From the NCBI RefSeq assembly GCF_000337835.1, contig NZ_AOLM01000018.1, positions 62,001 through 126,000 of the forward strand: a DNA stretch of 64,000 nt, in the 5' to 3' direction. Below the pieces are notes generated by a model that made no database searches, had not been told where the DNA came from, and worked only from the letters and a program-made list of their open reading frames with translations. Position numbers and translations under genes: made by a program. Below, one piece after another: positions 5,928 to 37,082 of the stretch. Source of the DNA: Haloferax sulfurifontis ATCC BAA-897. Its GTDB lineage: Archaea; Halobacteriota; Halobacteria; Halobacteriales; Haloferacaceae. Each line of letters begins with the position of its first letter. Position 1 is the stretch's first letter.

Positions 5928-5937
5928 CCCGAGGCCG

Positions 5938-6120
5938 ATGCGCGTCATCCACCCGGCGGACCACCGGACCTGTTATCGGTGCGGCGAGCGCGCCGACGTG
6001 GTCGTCGCCCGCGGCCACGACCTTCGGTACAGCTGTTGGGACTGTTCGCACTCGCTTCTCGAACACGGCGGCGTCATCGTCGCGGGCGAACTGGGGAAGT
6101 CCCGCCCGCGGTCTCGGTGA
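5938..6120 (+). CDS. 60-residue two-CxxC zinc micro-protein
   Basis: Two cysteine pairs, CYRC (residues 12-15) and CWDC (residues 33-36), flank a His/Arg-containing segment. A short basic tail ends the protein (GKSRPRSR). The spacing fits a single four-cysteine zinc ribbon. It follows the 139-residue gene by 10 bases. Function unknown; it is one of at least six small zinc proteins of this design in the window. Confidence 0.8.
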   Translation: MRVIHPADHRTCYRCGERADVVVARGHDLRYSCWDCSHSLLEHGGVIVAGELGKSRPRSR

Positions 6121-6240
6121 ACCCCGGCGGCACCCTCTCCAGAGTCCCAGATATCGCCGACTCGACCCGGGTTCGCCTCGATTCCGACGCCGTGAGAACG
6201 AGTCCCGTATTCAAGCCCCCGGAGACCCTAACGGTCGACT

Positions 6241-9057
<2,817 letters not shown>

Positions 9058-24176: not shown

Positions 24177-24323
24177 GTCCGGGACTAAGCTCGCCGGCGA
24201 AAAAGTCCTTGCGTGCGACACGCACACCGACGCCCGCCTCGTGCCGTGGTCCCGCGGTTCATTGAGAGTTCACATCGTAACCGTCTTAAGTAACCGTCGA
24301 GTACCGGAGAATGCAGTAAGACA

Positions 24324-24396
24324 GTCCTGATAGGGTAGTGGACTATCCTCCTGGCTTGCGGAGCCAGGGACCGGAGTTCAAATCTCCGTCAGGACG
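24324..24396 (+). tRNA. tRNA-Arg (GCG)
   Basis: Cloverleaf with a 7-bp acceptor stem (GTCCTGA/TCAGGAC), D-arm TAGGGTAGTGGACTA, anticodon stem CTGGC/GCCAG with loop TTGCGGA (anticodon GCG, decoding CGC), T-arm CGGAG-TTCAAAT-CTCCG and G73. Extra copies of its 3' half follow at 24496 and, eroded, at 24615. Confidence 0.95.
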
Positions 24397-24459
24397 TTTC
24401 TACGAGGAACTACACGACGAGCGAAGCGAGGAGTCCGCTCCTCGTTGAAACTCCGTTTC

Positions 24460-24523
24460 GGAGACTTGAACAGGGAGCGACCGAAGGGAGCGAGTGAGTT
24501 CAAATCTCCGTCAGGACGTTTCT
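24460..24523. repeat. tRNA-Arg 3'-half module (inverted T-arm plus direct copy of T-arm/acceptor)
   Basis: Bases 24496-24523 repeat 24374-24401 exactly (28 of 28): half of the T-stem, T-loop, acceptor 3' strand, G73 and five flanking bases. Upstream at 24460-24471, GGAGACTTGAAC is the inverted counterpart of GTTCAAATCTCC (24498-24509) with one mismatch, so the copy sits in a 12-bp-stem hairpin with a 26-base loop. Confidence 0.9.
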
Positions 24524-24580
24524 CTCTGGACCCGACCTTCGAGAGCCCTCTGTTCTCTCGGGTCGGTTCACATTCTCTAC

Positions 24581-24635
24581 GGAGACCTGAACGGCAAGCG
24601 ACTTCGTCGCGACCGGGTTCAGCGCTCGTCAGGAC
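24581..24635. repeat. second, eroded tRNA-Arg 3'-half module
   Basis: The same architecture as the module before it: GGAGACCTGAAC (24581-24592), an inner perfect hairpin GCGAC-TTC-GTCGC (24598-24610), then GGGTTCAG (24615-24622) and the acceptor remnant GTCAGGAC (24628-24635). The stop codon of the downstream minus-strand esterase (24629-24631) lies within this remnant. Confidence 0.6.
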
Positions 24636-25312
24636 TCGACGTGAGCGGCCAACCCGAGCTCCAGTTCTTCGACCCCGTCGAGTACCACGTCGGCCATGCG
24701 GCGCGCCCCGCGCTCGCTGAAGTGCGTGTCGTCGGCGACACCCTCCGGATAGTTCGGGTGTTCGCCCGGTTCGAGGTGGTTGTAGAGGCCCGTCGACTCC
24801 GCGGGACCGAGTTCCGCCAGGAGCGCCCGCGTTCGCTCGTCCATGTCGATGAACGGAACGTCGCGGTCGCGTGCGACGGTTCTCGTCAGGTCGGCGTACT
24901 CGCGGTGGGTGTCTTTCGGGACGCCGTCGTCGTCGAAGTGGCGGCGCGCGATGGACGTGAGCAACACCGGCGTCGCTCCGCGTTCGCGCGTCTCGTCGAC
25001 GAACGTCCGGAGGTTGTCGACGAACGCCGCCTCGGTCGTGTGCTGTTCCTTCGAGGGCACCTCGTCGTTGTGGCCGAACTGGACGAACACGTAGTCGGTC
25101 GCGGTCAACTGGCGGACCACGGGACGCCAGCGACCCTCCGCCAGAAACGTGCGGGTGCTCCGGCCGTTTCGGGCGTGGTTCGCCACCGCGACGGCGTCGT
25201 CGAAACAGTCGGCGAAGGGCATTCCCCACCCGGTTTCCGGGCGCTCGTTCGCCTCCTTATCGGCCATCGTGGAGTCCCCGACGAGATGAACGGTAATCGA
25301 CTCGGACGACAT
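24629..25312 (-). CDS. SGNH-family esterase, rhamnogalacturonan acetylesterase-like
   Basis: A 227-residue hydrolase with the block I motif GDSTMADK (nucleophile S14), block III QFGHND and a C-terminal DDTHFSERG carrying the Asp-His pair. The GDSTMAxK form is typical of rhamnogalacturonan acetylesterases (YesT/CE12), which remove acetyl groups from pectic polysaccharide. No signal peptide is visible from ATG 25312, so it probably acts on imported oligosaccharides or other acetylated sugars inside the cell. Its 3' end lies in a tRNA-Arg module. No pectin-degradation neighbours are present. Confidence 0.85.
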   Translation of the reverse strand: MSSESITVHLVGDSTMADKEANERPETGWGMPFADCFDDAVAVANHARNGRSTRTFLAEGRWRPVVRQLTATDYVFVQFGHNDEVPSKEQHTTEAAFVDNLRTFVDETRERGATPVLLTSIARRHFDDDGVPKDTHREYADLTRTVARDRDVPFIDMDERTRALLAELGPAESTGLYNHLEPGEHPNYPEGVADDTHFSERGARRMADVVLDGVEELELGLAAHVES

Positions 25313-33139: not shown

Positions 33140-33245
33140 GGCGGGAGAACCTTACGGCAACCGAGCGGAGCGAGGTTGACGGAGTGGTTCGAATCCGCCC
33201 GAACACCGACTGCGATACGAGCGACCGAGGTTCGAATCCGCCCGA
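33140..33245. repeat. two tRNA-Val 3'-half modules
   Basis: GTGGTTCGAATCCGCCCGA recurs at 33184-33202 (19 of 19 with 33072-33090), and GGTTCGAATCCGCCCGA at 33229-33245 (17 of 17). A degenerate inverted T-arm (GGCGGGAGAACC, 33140-33151) and an inner hairpin GGCAACC-GAGCGGAGCGA-GGTTG(A)C precede the first. After the matched block the acceptor end diverges (ACACC, CTCCA instead of GCCCA). Confidence 0.85.
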
Positions 33246-33251
33246 CTCCAC

Positions 33252-34733: not shown

Positions 34734-34807
34734 GCCGCCTTAGCTCAGACTGGGAGAGCACTCGACTGAAGATCGAGCTGTCCCCGGTTCAAATCCGGGA
34801 GGCGGCA
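34734..34807 (+). tRNA. tRNA-Phe (GAA), copy 1
   Basis: Cloverleaf with acceptor GCCGCCT/AGGCGGC, D-arm TAGCTCAGACTGG, anticodon stem CTCGA/TCGAG with loop CTGAAGA (GAA), T-arm CCCGG-TTCAAAT-CCGGG and A73. It is identical to the copy at 36732. Two extra 3'-half copies follow downstream. Confidence 0.97.
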
Positions 34808-34857: not shown

Positions 34858-34920
34858 GATTTGAACCCAAGAAGTCGAACGGAGTGAGTCTTCTTTCGGT
34901 TCAAATCCGGGAGGCGGCAT
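34858..34920. repeat. tRNA-Phe 3'-half module 1
   Basis: Bases 34897-34920 repeat 34785-34808 exactly (24 of 24). GATTTGAACC (34858-34867) is a perfect inverted partner of GGTTCAAATC (34898-34907), with a nested AAGAAG/CTTCTT pair inside, so the module folds as one long hairpin. Confidence 0.92.
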
Positions 34921-34979: not shown

Positions 34980-35044
34980 CCGGATTCTGAACCAGCGAGC
35001 AAATCGAAGATTTGCGAGCGAGGTTCAAATCCGGGAGGCGGCAT
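34980..35044. repeat. tRNA-Phe 3'-half module 2
   Basis: GGTTCAAATCCGGGAGGCGGCAT (35022-35044 less the first bases of the stem) repeats the native gene. CCGGATTCTGAACC (34980-34993) is its inverted partner with one extra base; inside is GCAAATC-GAA-GATTTGC. Bases 35022-35079 match 36784-36841 (native T-arm and flank of tRNA-Phe copy 2) at 57 of 58 positions. Confidence 0.92.
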
Positions 35045-35238: not shown

Positions 35239-35433
35239 ATGGCGAAAGGTAAGGTCGACTTCTTCAACGACACTGGCGGCTACGGTTTCATCTCTACTGA
35301 CGACGCGGACGACGACGTGTTCTTCCACATGGAAGATGTTGGCGGTCCGGACCTCGAAGAGGGTCAGGAGATCGAATTCGACATCGAGCAGGCCCCCAAG
35401 GGCCCGCGCGCGACGAACGTCACCCGCCTCTAA
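35239..35433 (+). CDS. cspA: cold shock protein CspA, copy 1
   Basis: A 64-residue cold-shock-domain OB fold with RNP1 (GYGFIS) and RNP2 (VFFHM). It binds single-stranded nucleic acid and acts as an RNA chaperone. ACTTATCC at about 35206-35212 is the likely TATA element for a leaderless or short-leader transcript. It is followed by a T-rich stretch (TTTCTTCCGTTTTT) that may terminate transcription. Nearly identical to the second copy 355 bp downstream. Confidence 0.96.
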   Translation: MAKGKVDFFNDTGGYGFISTDDADDDVFFHMEDVGGPDLEEGQEIEFDIEQAPKGPRATNVTRL

Positions 35434-35593
35434 GCAGGTTTCCGTTCACCGCAGTACATTCACAGACTGACGAACTTTCTTCCGTTTTTCACGCCCGCGA
35501 GCGGCGGCGCTCGGCGGCGCACCGCGAGTCGGGCGAGCGATACCCTCGCCATGCGGAAGGGTTATCCGTTCGCAGGCACGTTGTACGGTTGCA

Positions 35594-35788
35594 ATGGCGA
35601 AAGGTAAGGTCGACTTCTTCAACGACACTGGCGGCTACGGTTTCATCTCTACTGACGACGCGGACGACGACGTGTTCTTCCACATGGAAGATGTTGGCGG
35701 TCCGGACCTCGAAGAGGGTCAGGAAGTGGAGTTCGACATCGAGCAGGCCCCCAAGGGCCCGCGCGCGACGAACGTCACGCGCCTGTAA
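35594..35788 (+). CDS. cspA: cold shock protein CspA, copy 2
   Basis: 64 residues, differing from copy 1 only at residue 45 (Val instead of Ile). The nucleotide sequences differ at just 6 of 195 positions, clustered in two spots (about codons 44-46 and the last three codons); the rest, including all third positions, is identical. The upstream regions are unrelated except for GTTATCC placed as in copy 1. This indicates recent duplication or gene conversion. Confidence 0.96.
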   Translation: MAKGKVDFFNDTGGYGFISTDDADDDVFFHMEDVGGPDLEEGQEVEFDIEQAPKGPRATNVTRL

Positions 35789-35831
35789 TTCGGTTTCCGA
35801 ATTCAGTACCAGACGAATCGATTTCTGAGCG

Positions 35832-36731: not shown

Positions 36732-36805
36732 GCCGCCTTAGCTCAGACTGGGAGAGCACTCGACTGAAGATCGAGCTGTCCCCGGTTCAAATCCGGGAGG
36801 CGGCA
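36732..36805 (+). tRNA. tRNA-Phe (GAA), copy 2
   Basis: Identical over all 74 bases to the tRNA-Phe at 34734. The immediate 3' flank (ATTTTTCTGCGAACTACCGA) is shared not with copy 1 but with the second downstream fragment of copy 1, showing that the gene and its flanking modules have recombined. Confidence 0.97.
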
Positions 36806-37024: not shown

Positions 37025-37041
37025 GGTTCAAATACGGGAGG
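37025..37041. repeat. degenerate tRNA-Phe T-arm/acceptor copy
   Basis: GGTTCAAATACGGGAGG matches the native tRNA-Phe except for one base; the acceptor end is lost after GGAGG. It is preceded by a hairpin like that of module 2 (GCAGATCTCCGATTTGC), and GCCACCCGACCGGATTCTGAACC-type left-arm sequence occurs at 36860-36882 exactly as at 34971-34993. Confidence 0.85.
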
Positions 37042-37082
37042 TACCCCCAATTTAAGGCCGAGAGTGAGAGCCGAAACCCCGC

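Follow-up and report, generated by a model that had tools for sequence, protein, structure and literature searches.

The window analyzed here, a 64,000-nt stretch of the Haloferax sulfurifontis ATCC BAA-897 genome (contig NZ_AOLM01000018.1, positions 62,001 to 126,000), carries a tRNA-Arg gene with the anticodon GCG at positions 24324 to 24396 of the plus strand (found by ARAGORN and matched by Rfam RF00005) and, at 24629 to 25312 of the minus strand, a gene for a GDSL/SGNH esterase of 227 amino acids (Pfam PF13472, E = 1.6e-19). The last 22 nt of the tRNA gene (24375 to 24396, plus strand) recur downstream within a longer repeat: GAGTTCAAATCTCCGTCAGGACGTTTCT is present at 24374 to 24401 and at 24496 to 24523 of the plus strand, 100% identical and with starts 122 bp apart, the second occurrence (tail copy 1) being a perfect 28-bp repeat of the tRNA-Arg 3' end and its flank that lies far above chance level in control tests on the same genome. 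Between the two lies the body of what we call cassette 1 (24402 to 24495, plus strand), which comprises a spacer hairpin (24402 to 24445), an inverted T-arm and a core hairpin. The inverted T-arm, GGAGACTTGAAC (24460 to 24471), pairs with GTTCAAATCTCC in the tail copy (24498 to 24509) at 11 of 12 positions, and in a relative (G008, locus L056), where the inverted arm is GGAGATTTGAAC, all 12 positions pair. The core hairpin, AGGGAGCGACCGAAGGGAGCGAGTG (24472 to 24496, plus strand), carries a GAG...GCGA motif conserved in alignment A1, and the covariance model R1 described below matches window positions 24461 to 24518 (G000:C18:86461-86518) with E = 9e-8. The perfect copy within a hairpin that a preliminary description of this DNA had pointed out is thus real. 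In another relative (G011, L060/L070), the body of cassette 1 is missing as one unit, and the junction there is a single tail copy.

A second, eroded cassette follows on the plus strand. Its spacer (24519 to 24577) contains a hairpin of its own, its inverted arm, ACGGAGACCTGAAC (24579 to 24592), is 86% complementary to 24498 to 24511, and its tail copy 2, GTTCAGCGCTCGTCAGGAC (24617 to 24635), is likewise eroded. Aligned to cassette 1, CGGAGACCTGAACGGCAAGCGAC at 24580 corresponds to CGGAGACTTGAACAGGGAGCGAC at 24459 (83%). Cassette 2 terminates in CGTCAGGAC (24627 to 24635). The esterase stop codon, TGA, is the complement of 24629 to 24631 and lies inside GTCAGGAC, the last part of the eroded cassette, and the last codons of the gene, GAG TCC TGA, fall in the complement of tail copy 2. 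By itself, the 9-mer CGTCAGGAC is no rarer than chance (3 occurrences in the window versus 2.04 expected), so loci of relatives were needed to decide the origin of this junction; no additional CGTCAGGAC in the window could show how the esterase gene came to adjoin tRNA-Arg.

We compared 15 genomes of the genus (G000 to G014, G000 being the window's own), in 8 of which the esterase gene adjoins tRNA-Arg. In one of these relatives (G009, L061), the second unit, that is, the stretch between tail copies, is missing, and the counterpart of tail copy 2 is intact: GTTCAAATATCCGTCAGGAC contains 19 of 20 letters of the tRNA tail and directly abuts the esterase stop. The Haloferax massiliensis locus (L083) has the same end. 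Among named Haloferax records, tRNA-Arg lies a short way past the stop at all six esterase loci, and all six proteins have 227 residues and the C terminus AAHVES-stop or a close variant. The 12 full-length homologues from other haloarchaea (L089 to L100; a partial match, L102, was excluded) have 226 to 235 residues and, without exception, different C termini; their stops lack tail sequence, and the fetched 3-kb flanks contain no tRNA. From the nearly intact tail at the stop in G009 and the other, tRNA-free ends of the 12 homologues, we conclude, on sequence comparison alone, that the esterase end in Haloferax is rebuilt from a tRNA tail. The relatives thereby support both earlier suggestions about this gene, namely, that an eroded second module ends at its stop codon and that the process can supply the 3' end of a neighboring gene, and the case named beforehand as refuting them (a conserved esterase end with the tRNA elsewhere) was searched for among the related loci and not found. 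A merely accidental match of 8 bases at the junction, with no relation to the tRNA tail, finds its only argument in the unremarkable frequency of the 9-mer; it is refuted by the G009 tail and by the homologues outside Haloferax, and we regard it as virtually impossible. In one genome (G014, L059), GTCAGGAC is one base short (GTCAGAC), which shifts the frame at the extreme end of the esterase gene.

Similar arrangements follow other tRNA genes of the window. Two copies of the tRNA-Val tail lie within 33186 to 33250 of the plus strand, with 3 mismatches (33186 to 33207) and 2 mismatches (33229 to 33250). The first tRNA-Phe gene (34734 to 34807) is followed by two tail copies on the plus strand, both without mismatches (34898 to 34919 and 35022 to 35043), and the second (36732 to 36805) by one plus-strand copy with 5 mismatches (37025 to 37046); the sequence 3' of the second copy at the first gene (from 35044) recurs directly 3' of the second gene (from 36806). 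Between the two tRNA-Phe loci lie two near-identical tandem cold-shock-type genes (35240 to 35434 and 35595 to 35789; both beginning MAKGKVDFFNDTGGYGF).

The Rfam tRNA model found 50 tRNA genes in the genome and missed at least one more, a tRNA-Pro near L178/L180. For the 49 tRNA genes with 400 nt of sequence beyond them, we compared the last 22 nt with the 400 nt downstream after masking other tRNA genes. A copy of the gene's own tail was present at 17 of the 49 genes when up to 3 mismatches were allowed and at 22 when up to 5 were allowed; with the tails of other tRNAs as mismatched controls, 3 of 2,363 comparisons gave a copy at up to 3 mismatches, and the 400 nt upstream, tested in the same way, gave none for any of the 49 genes. 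The inverted arms are private to each tRNA, such that, for example, the tRNA-Gly with GGTTCAATTCCC carries the inverted arm GGGAATTGAA (the arm comparison omits the first match of L015 and the whole of L034, which duplicate neighbors). GAG and GCGA around the core are common to the 15 units of alignment A1, in which GC/GT, GG/CC and AG/CT pairs interchange between the GA steps. The R1 model and the pair count rest on 11 of these 15 units; four with an arm one base shorter (L019, L036, L037 and L001), the window's own unit among them, were left out. Both sides had changed in 10 of the 20 pairs of the 11 units, and the covariation score was reached by none of 500 shuffles (slid versions scored no more than 0.09, versus 0.341). 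The units are thus foldable imperfect palindromes with conserved ends and a variable middle (alignments A1 and A2 and pair counts), about 80 to 120 bp long, and contain only a spacer and hairpins, with no open reading frame (ORF).

R1 gave 25 matches in the genome at E values of 0.1 or better, and 22 of them are preceded, at no more than 1.5 kb, by a same-strand tRNA (among these, L185 is the opposite strand of the L174 palindrome). The three exceptions lie 6.8 kb past a tRNA with the same tail (L172), after a tail-like remnant (L181) and after aspS (L184). The second of these cassettes (G000:C2:53176-53232) is about 1.8 kb downstream of a tRNA, and the remnant that precedes it reads GGTTCAAATCCCCTCCCGAGCA.

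At an E value of 0.001, R1 matched 56 of 59 haloarchaeal genomes, representing 30 of 31 genera; three of the 59 (G028, G032 and G040) had no match. The model holds no information on the upstream tRNA, and the best loci of 29 other genomes nevertheless all follow a tRNA at a distance of 31 to 310 nt, with 0 mismatches between the unit tail and the tail of that tRNA in 20 cases, 1 in 7, 2 in one and 5 in one. When three genomes, each from a different family, are taken together, 45 of the 54 matches have a listed same-strand tRNA no more than 1 kb upstream, where about 1% would be expected, and several of the remaining 9 proved on reading to follow intron-containing or unlisted tRNAs. Of 120 genomes drawn from the wider phylum, 17 had matches, all within one order, that of the haloarchaea; among the 20 listed of the 103 without a match, 2 were haloarchaea and 18 came from the wider phylum. 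The general process at tRNA 3' ends that had been suspected from a few loci is thus observed at 17 of 49 tRNA genes in this genome and class-wide in haloarchaea. One cassette (L267, G060:C1:544320-544377) appears isolated, with no recognizable tRNA or tail copy upstream in the stretch that was read.

The copies have sharp boundaries. Across 46 loci (17 from the window's genome and 29 from others), the identity between the tRNA and its first copy is near chance 5' of G53, the G that precedes the T-loop, and about 1.0 from G53 to the end of the tRNA; at the 29 other loci, it drops to about half immediately past the tRNA end. The start of the T-loop reads GTTCRA in the tRNAs, and the junction in aspS reads GTTCCC.

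Close relatives differ precisely in which units they carry. The genus has two chromosomal tRNA-Tyr loci with unrelated flanks (identity of 0.61 to 0.66). In G013, both loci have a 102-bp unit, with a spacer and a core of its own, lying between the tRNA and an older unit; G014 and G003 each have it there at a single locus, and at one G001 locus it replaces the older unit. It is absent from both loci in the window's genome, from locus I in G009 and from locus II in G001 and G008. Over 114 nt, no difference separates the copies in G013 (C22), G014 and G003; identity is 99% for the other copy in G013 and 99% over 103 nt for that in G001. G008 has a chimera of the 102-bp and older units. Since the insert differs from the resident cassette in both core and spacer, it did not arise as a tandem duplication, and simple duplication at tRNA-Tyr is ruled out. 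Extra units are gene proximal both at tRNA-Tyr (G013 and G014) and at aspS (G011 and G014 compared with G008), although we have no tree with which to polarize the direction of change. In other genera, related cores occur at tRNA-Tyr and tRNA-Phe, with the T-arm, but not the acceptor stem, in common, which suggests that cassettes change targets. After tRNA-Lys in G052 (L241, G052:C1:2656300-2657900), four perfect tandem 111-bp units precede one with a different tail, GGTTCGAATCCCGTCGCGCCCG.

At one locus of the window's genome (L237, G000:C19:7500-15800), a 6.7-kb integrated element separates a tRNA from a cassette, both of which have the tail GGTTCAAATCCCTCCACCGGCT. The element carries a Phage_integrase ORF (5935 to 7323, minus strand; PF00589, E = 5e-16) and closes with some 15 bp of tail. 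A complete cassette starts directly thereafter, so the element appears to have inserted next to a preexisting cassette.

A protein gene is a target as well. This gene, which we take to be aspS from its C-terminal sequence without a family search, ends in FPRDRQRLSP-stop in all 15 genomes of the genus, encoded by 11 different DNA versions. In the 8 closest genomes, the mean difference is 17.3% in the last 33 nt versus 3.2% in the preceding 150 nt. Downstream lie displaced aspS ends that carry a common inverted arm and core, in arrays whose units differ between genomes: alpha-delta in G000, alpha-beta-gamma in G014, beta-gamma in G008, beta-alpha-delta in G001 and delta-gamma in G004. G000, G011 and G014 carry unit alpha with 100% identity over 90 bp, and their gene flanks are 96.0 to 96.7% identical over 150 nt; the units of G001, G004 and G013 are 82 to 99% like the reference units. 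Some displaced ends, in G000, G014, G001 and G005, are 100% identical to the working ends of G004, G008, G007 and G007, respectively. Because they are identical to working ends of other species, they are best read, as far as sequence can tell, as former working ends, the present end having come from outside. Target-site duplication alone is ruled out at aspS, since some displaced copies match other species' working ends and differ synonymously from the present end. Of 31 displaced copies identified by DNA similarity, 14 still encode FPRDRQRLSP-stop and 17 are altered, many of them to shorter remnants of the RQRLSP-stop type; together with chimeric units in G013 and G009, the altered copies count against a purely site-specific picture. 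The copies are mostly only 70 to 85% alike, yet their junctions lie at G/TTCCC (the slash marks the junction). The preliminary description was therefore right to name tRNA 3' ends as a target but not as the only one, and its design of inverted arm, inner hairpin and direct arm is present but, as a static description, misses insertion and swapping between species.

On balance, we judge it somewhat more likely than not that these units are a haloarchaeal family of tiny, noncoding insertion cassettes of about 80 to 120 bp that insert at, and replace, the 3' ends of essential genes, nearly always those of tRNAs. Each cassette would combine a replacement for the target 3' end (which in tRNAs runs from G53/T54 of the T-loop through the discriminator base), a spacer hairpin, an inverted T-arm and a core hairpin of variable sequence in which GA steps are conserved. 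Its last base would lie directly before the displaced former end of the gene. Insertion would take place at the start of the T-loop, at 5'-G/GTTC in tRNAs and 5'-G/TTCCC in aspS; the gene would receive the cassette's end, and the old end and older cassettes would shift downstream and erode there. On this reading, an old cassette end in the window fused to the esterase gene and provided its stop codon.

The comparisons demonstrate the anatomy, the sharp boundaries, target-private arms, the class-wide spread, precise presence and absence, one cassette at two unrelated tRNA-Tyr loci and recoded aspS ends. The steps in between are inferred: recombination would be site specific, with the hairpin, folded as a single strand, serving as the recombination site in the manner of an integron attC and with the enzyme supplied from elsewhere. 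Haloarchaea have many tyrosine recombinases. We hypothesize, tentatively and aware that the idea may well fail, an undescribed haloarchaeal recombination system in which a dedicated recombinase acts on the folded single-stranded hairpin and inserts cassettes of about 100 bp at tRNA G/GTTC or aspS-like sites, replacing the ends of essential genes; spent arrays would record past replacements and could supply the stop codons of neighbors. Several observations weigh against the insertion reading. No recombinase has been linked to the cassettes: we found no integrase beside the arrays that were read, although neighborhoods were not scanned systematically and only one integrase ORF, that of L237, was classified. 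A single folded strand has not been shown either: a comparison of the two strands by DNA folding favored the GA-bearing one in 33 of 39 cassettes, but did so in 70% of controls with shuffled cores as well. The chimeras at aspS (G013 and G009) and tRNA-Tyr (G008) show that ordinary recombination also acts inside arrays, and 3 of the 59 haloarchaeal genomes lack a match. Finally, a tRNA whose acceptor stem differs would be damaged if a cassette simply inserted into it, and the adaptation of the arms is unexplained; the change of target between tRNAs is accounted for neither by site-specific nor by ordinary recombination.

The chief rival, which is possible but which we think rather unlikely, needs no dedicated machinery: slippage or foldback template switching would create the units at hairpins, and ordinary homologous recombination or ectopic gene conversion would spread them, with the identical tRNA gene (~74 bp) as homology on one side and a tail copy (~21 bp) on the other. 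Chimeric cassettes, precise losses between tail copies, the four perfect tandem 111-bp copies in G052 and an insert common to paralogous tRNA-Tyr loci are all as such a process would have it. Left unexplained are the constant G53/T54 start in 46 loci, the occurrence of one core motif at many different tRNAs, the aspS arrays with their G/TTCCC junctions between copies mostly 70 to 85% alike and the tRNA-Tyr insert, whose core and spacer are unlike those of the resident unit.

We consider it improbable that the units are footprints of larger integrative elements (proviruses or integrative plasmids) that entered at tRNA 3' ends and lost their interiors. Integrative elements of Haloferax do duplicate tRNA 3' ends, according to the part of one report available to us (PMC7921747), and the window's genome has the 6.7-kb Phage_integrase element between a tRNA and a unit. 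That element, however, ends in ~15 bp of tail with the complete cassette beyond, which was thus already present, and random deletion would not yield the uniform unit design found in 30 of 31 genera. This single example that was read also points to intact elements without an inverted arm and core at their attachment ends. We give little credence to the remaining possibility, that the units are kept for a role as RNA, be it as terminators, in tRNA 3' processing or as decoy tRNA tails. The region folds strongly as RNA (z = -4.46), covariation preserves pairing, and many tails are followed by T-rich stretches; in Haloferax volcanii, transcription is terminated by T stretches and by some hairpins, as stated in the portion of a study that we could consult (PMC7237163). 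Close relatives nevertheless differ in the presence of a unit at the same tRNA, more than half of the tRNA genes have none, many units lie beyond a T-rich stretch, and aspS recoding would be unexplained. An Rfam scan of window positions 24200 to 24800 gave only the tRNA and two subthreshold matches, with no RtT match at an E value of 1; with no matching family and a patchy presence among relatives, we rejected a terminator or known RNA family as the sole explanation.

Among known systems, integrative elements at haloarchaeal tRNA genes (SNJ2-type and other tyrosine-recombinase elements) make use of the 3' end of the tRNA, which they restore, and leave a direct copy at the far end, as far as the accessible parts of two papers say (PMC7921747 and PMC8371274), the latter of which reviews archaeal integrases and their tRNA targets. 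The cassettes resemble them in directly duplicating the 3' end of the target tRNA. Those elements, in contrast, span kilobases and carry an integrase gene, whereas the cassettes, at 80 to 120 bp, are noncoding with no room for one, combine an inverted arm with a core hairpin and form tandem series at many tRNA genes within a single genome. Integron cassettes are small units arranged in arrays, each with an imperfect palindrome that can fold and that has conserved ends and a variable middle, and their order is shuffled between strains; the core site at the crossover is GTTRRRY. The likeness to attC lies in the arrays of small units with such a palindrome. The core site is not met, the fourth base being C (GTTCRA, or GTTCCC in aspS), integron cassettes normally carry an ORF, unlike these, and the cassettes here target essential genes at their 3' ends. 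Neither Halobacter nor haloarchaea appears as a term in what we could see of a paper on archaeal integrons (PMC9668308).

Small mobile repeats (SMR) of Haloquadratum walsbyi are described, in the accessible sections of one paper (PMC3119063), as ~110-bp noncoding sequences with inverted repeats, a strong target preference and an enigmatic mobilization; SMR-A target not tRNA genes but palindromes close to the termini of PATEs and IS605-type transposons. The cassettes are similar in size (~110 bp) and noncoding, but 22 of 25 matches in the window's genome follow a tRNA (within 1.5 kb) and one follows aspS, and those sections do not describe SMR as copying the end of a target, as the cassettes do. 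Partial tRNAs adjoining full copies have been counted in Haloferax gibbonsii LR2-5 (PMC7921747), with no description of an inverted arm, core, mobility or gene-end replacement in the part available, and tRNA fragments are the subject of another paper seen in part (PMC9897764). We found no description of these cassettes in the literature, although subscription journals were thinly covered, so this is not proof of absence. The tyrT distal repeats (rtT RNA) of Escherichia coli are ~178-bp tandem repeats after a tRNA gene, each with ~19 bp of the tRNA 3' end. They belong to one tRNA operon of one bacterium, whereas the cassettes are class-wide, and we know of no class-wide family, inverted arm or protein-gene target for them.

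Mobile elements at tRNA genes usually come with an integrase and with cargo measured in kilobases; here, an archaeal class as a whole has integrase-less, target-private hairpins in or beside essential genes, with evidence for rewritten 3' ends in a tRNA synthetase gene and an esterase gene. If a recombinase is found, it would provide a compact natural system for DNA writing at tRNA genes; if there is none, ordinary recombination at hairpins can repeatedly replace the ends of essential genes. Under either reading, many unexplained partial tRNA copies in haloarchaeal annotations are probably accounted for.

A terminator-like hairpin of the CTCCGAGAGACCTCCGTGTCTCTCGG type lies immediately 3' of several different tRNAs (L017, L025, L035, L046 and the tRNA-Arg loci of G005 and G012); it seems to be a further part that cassettes have in common.
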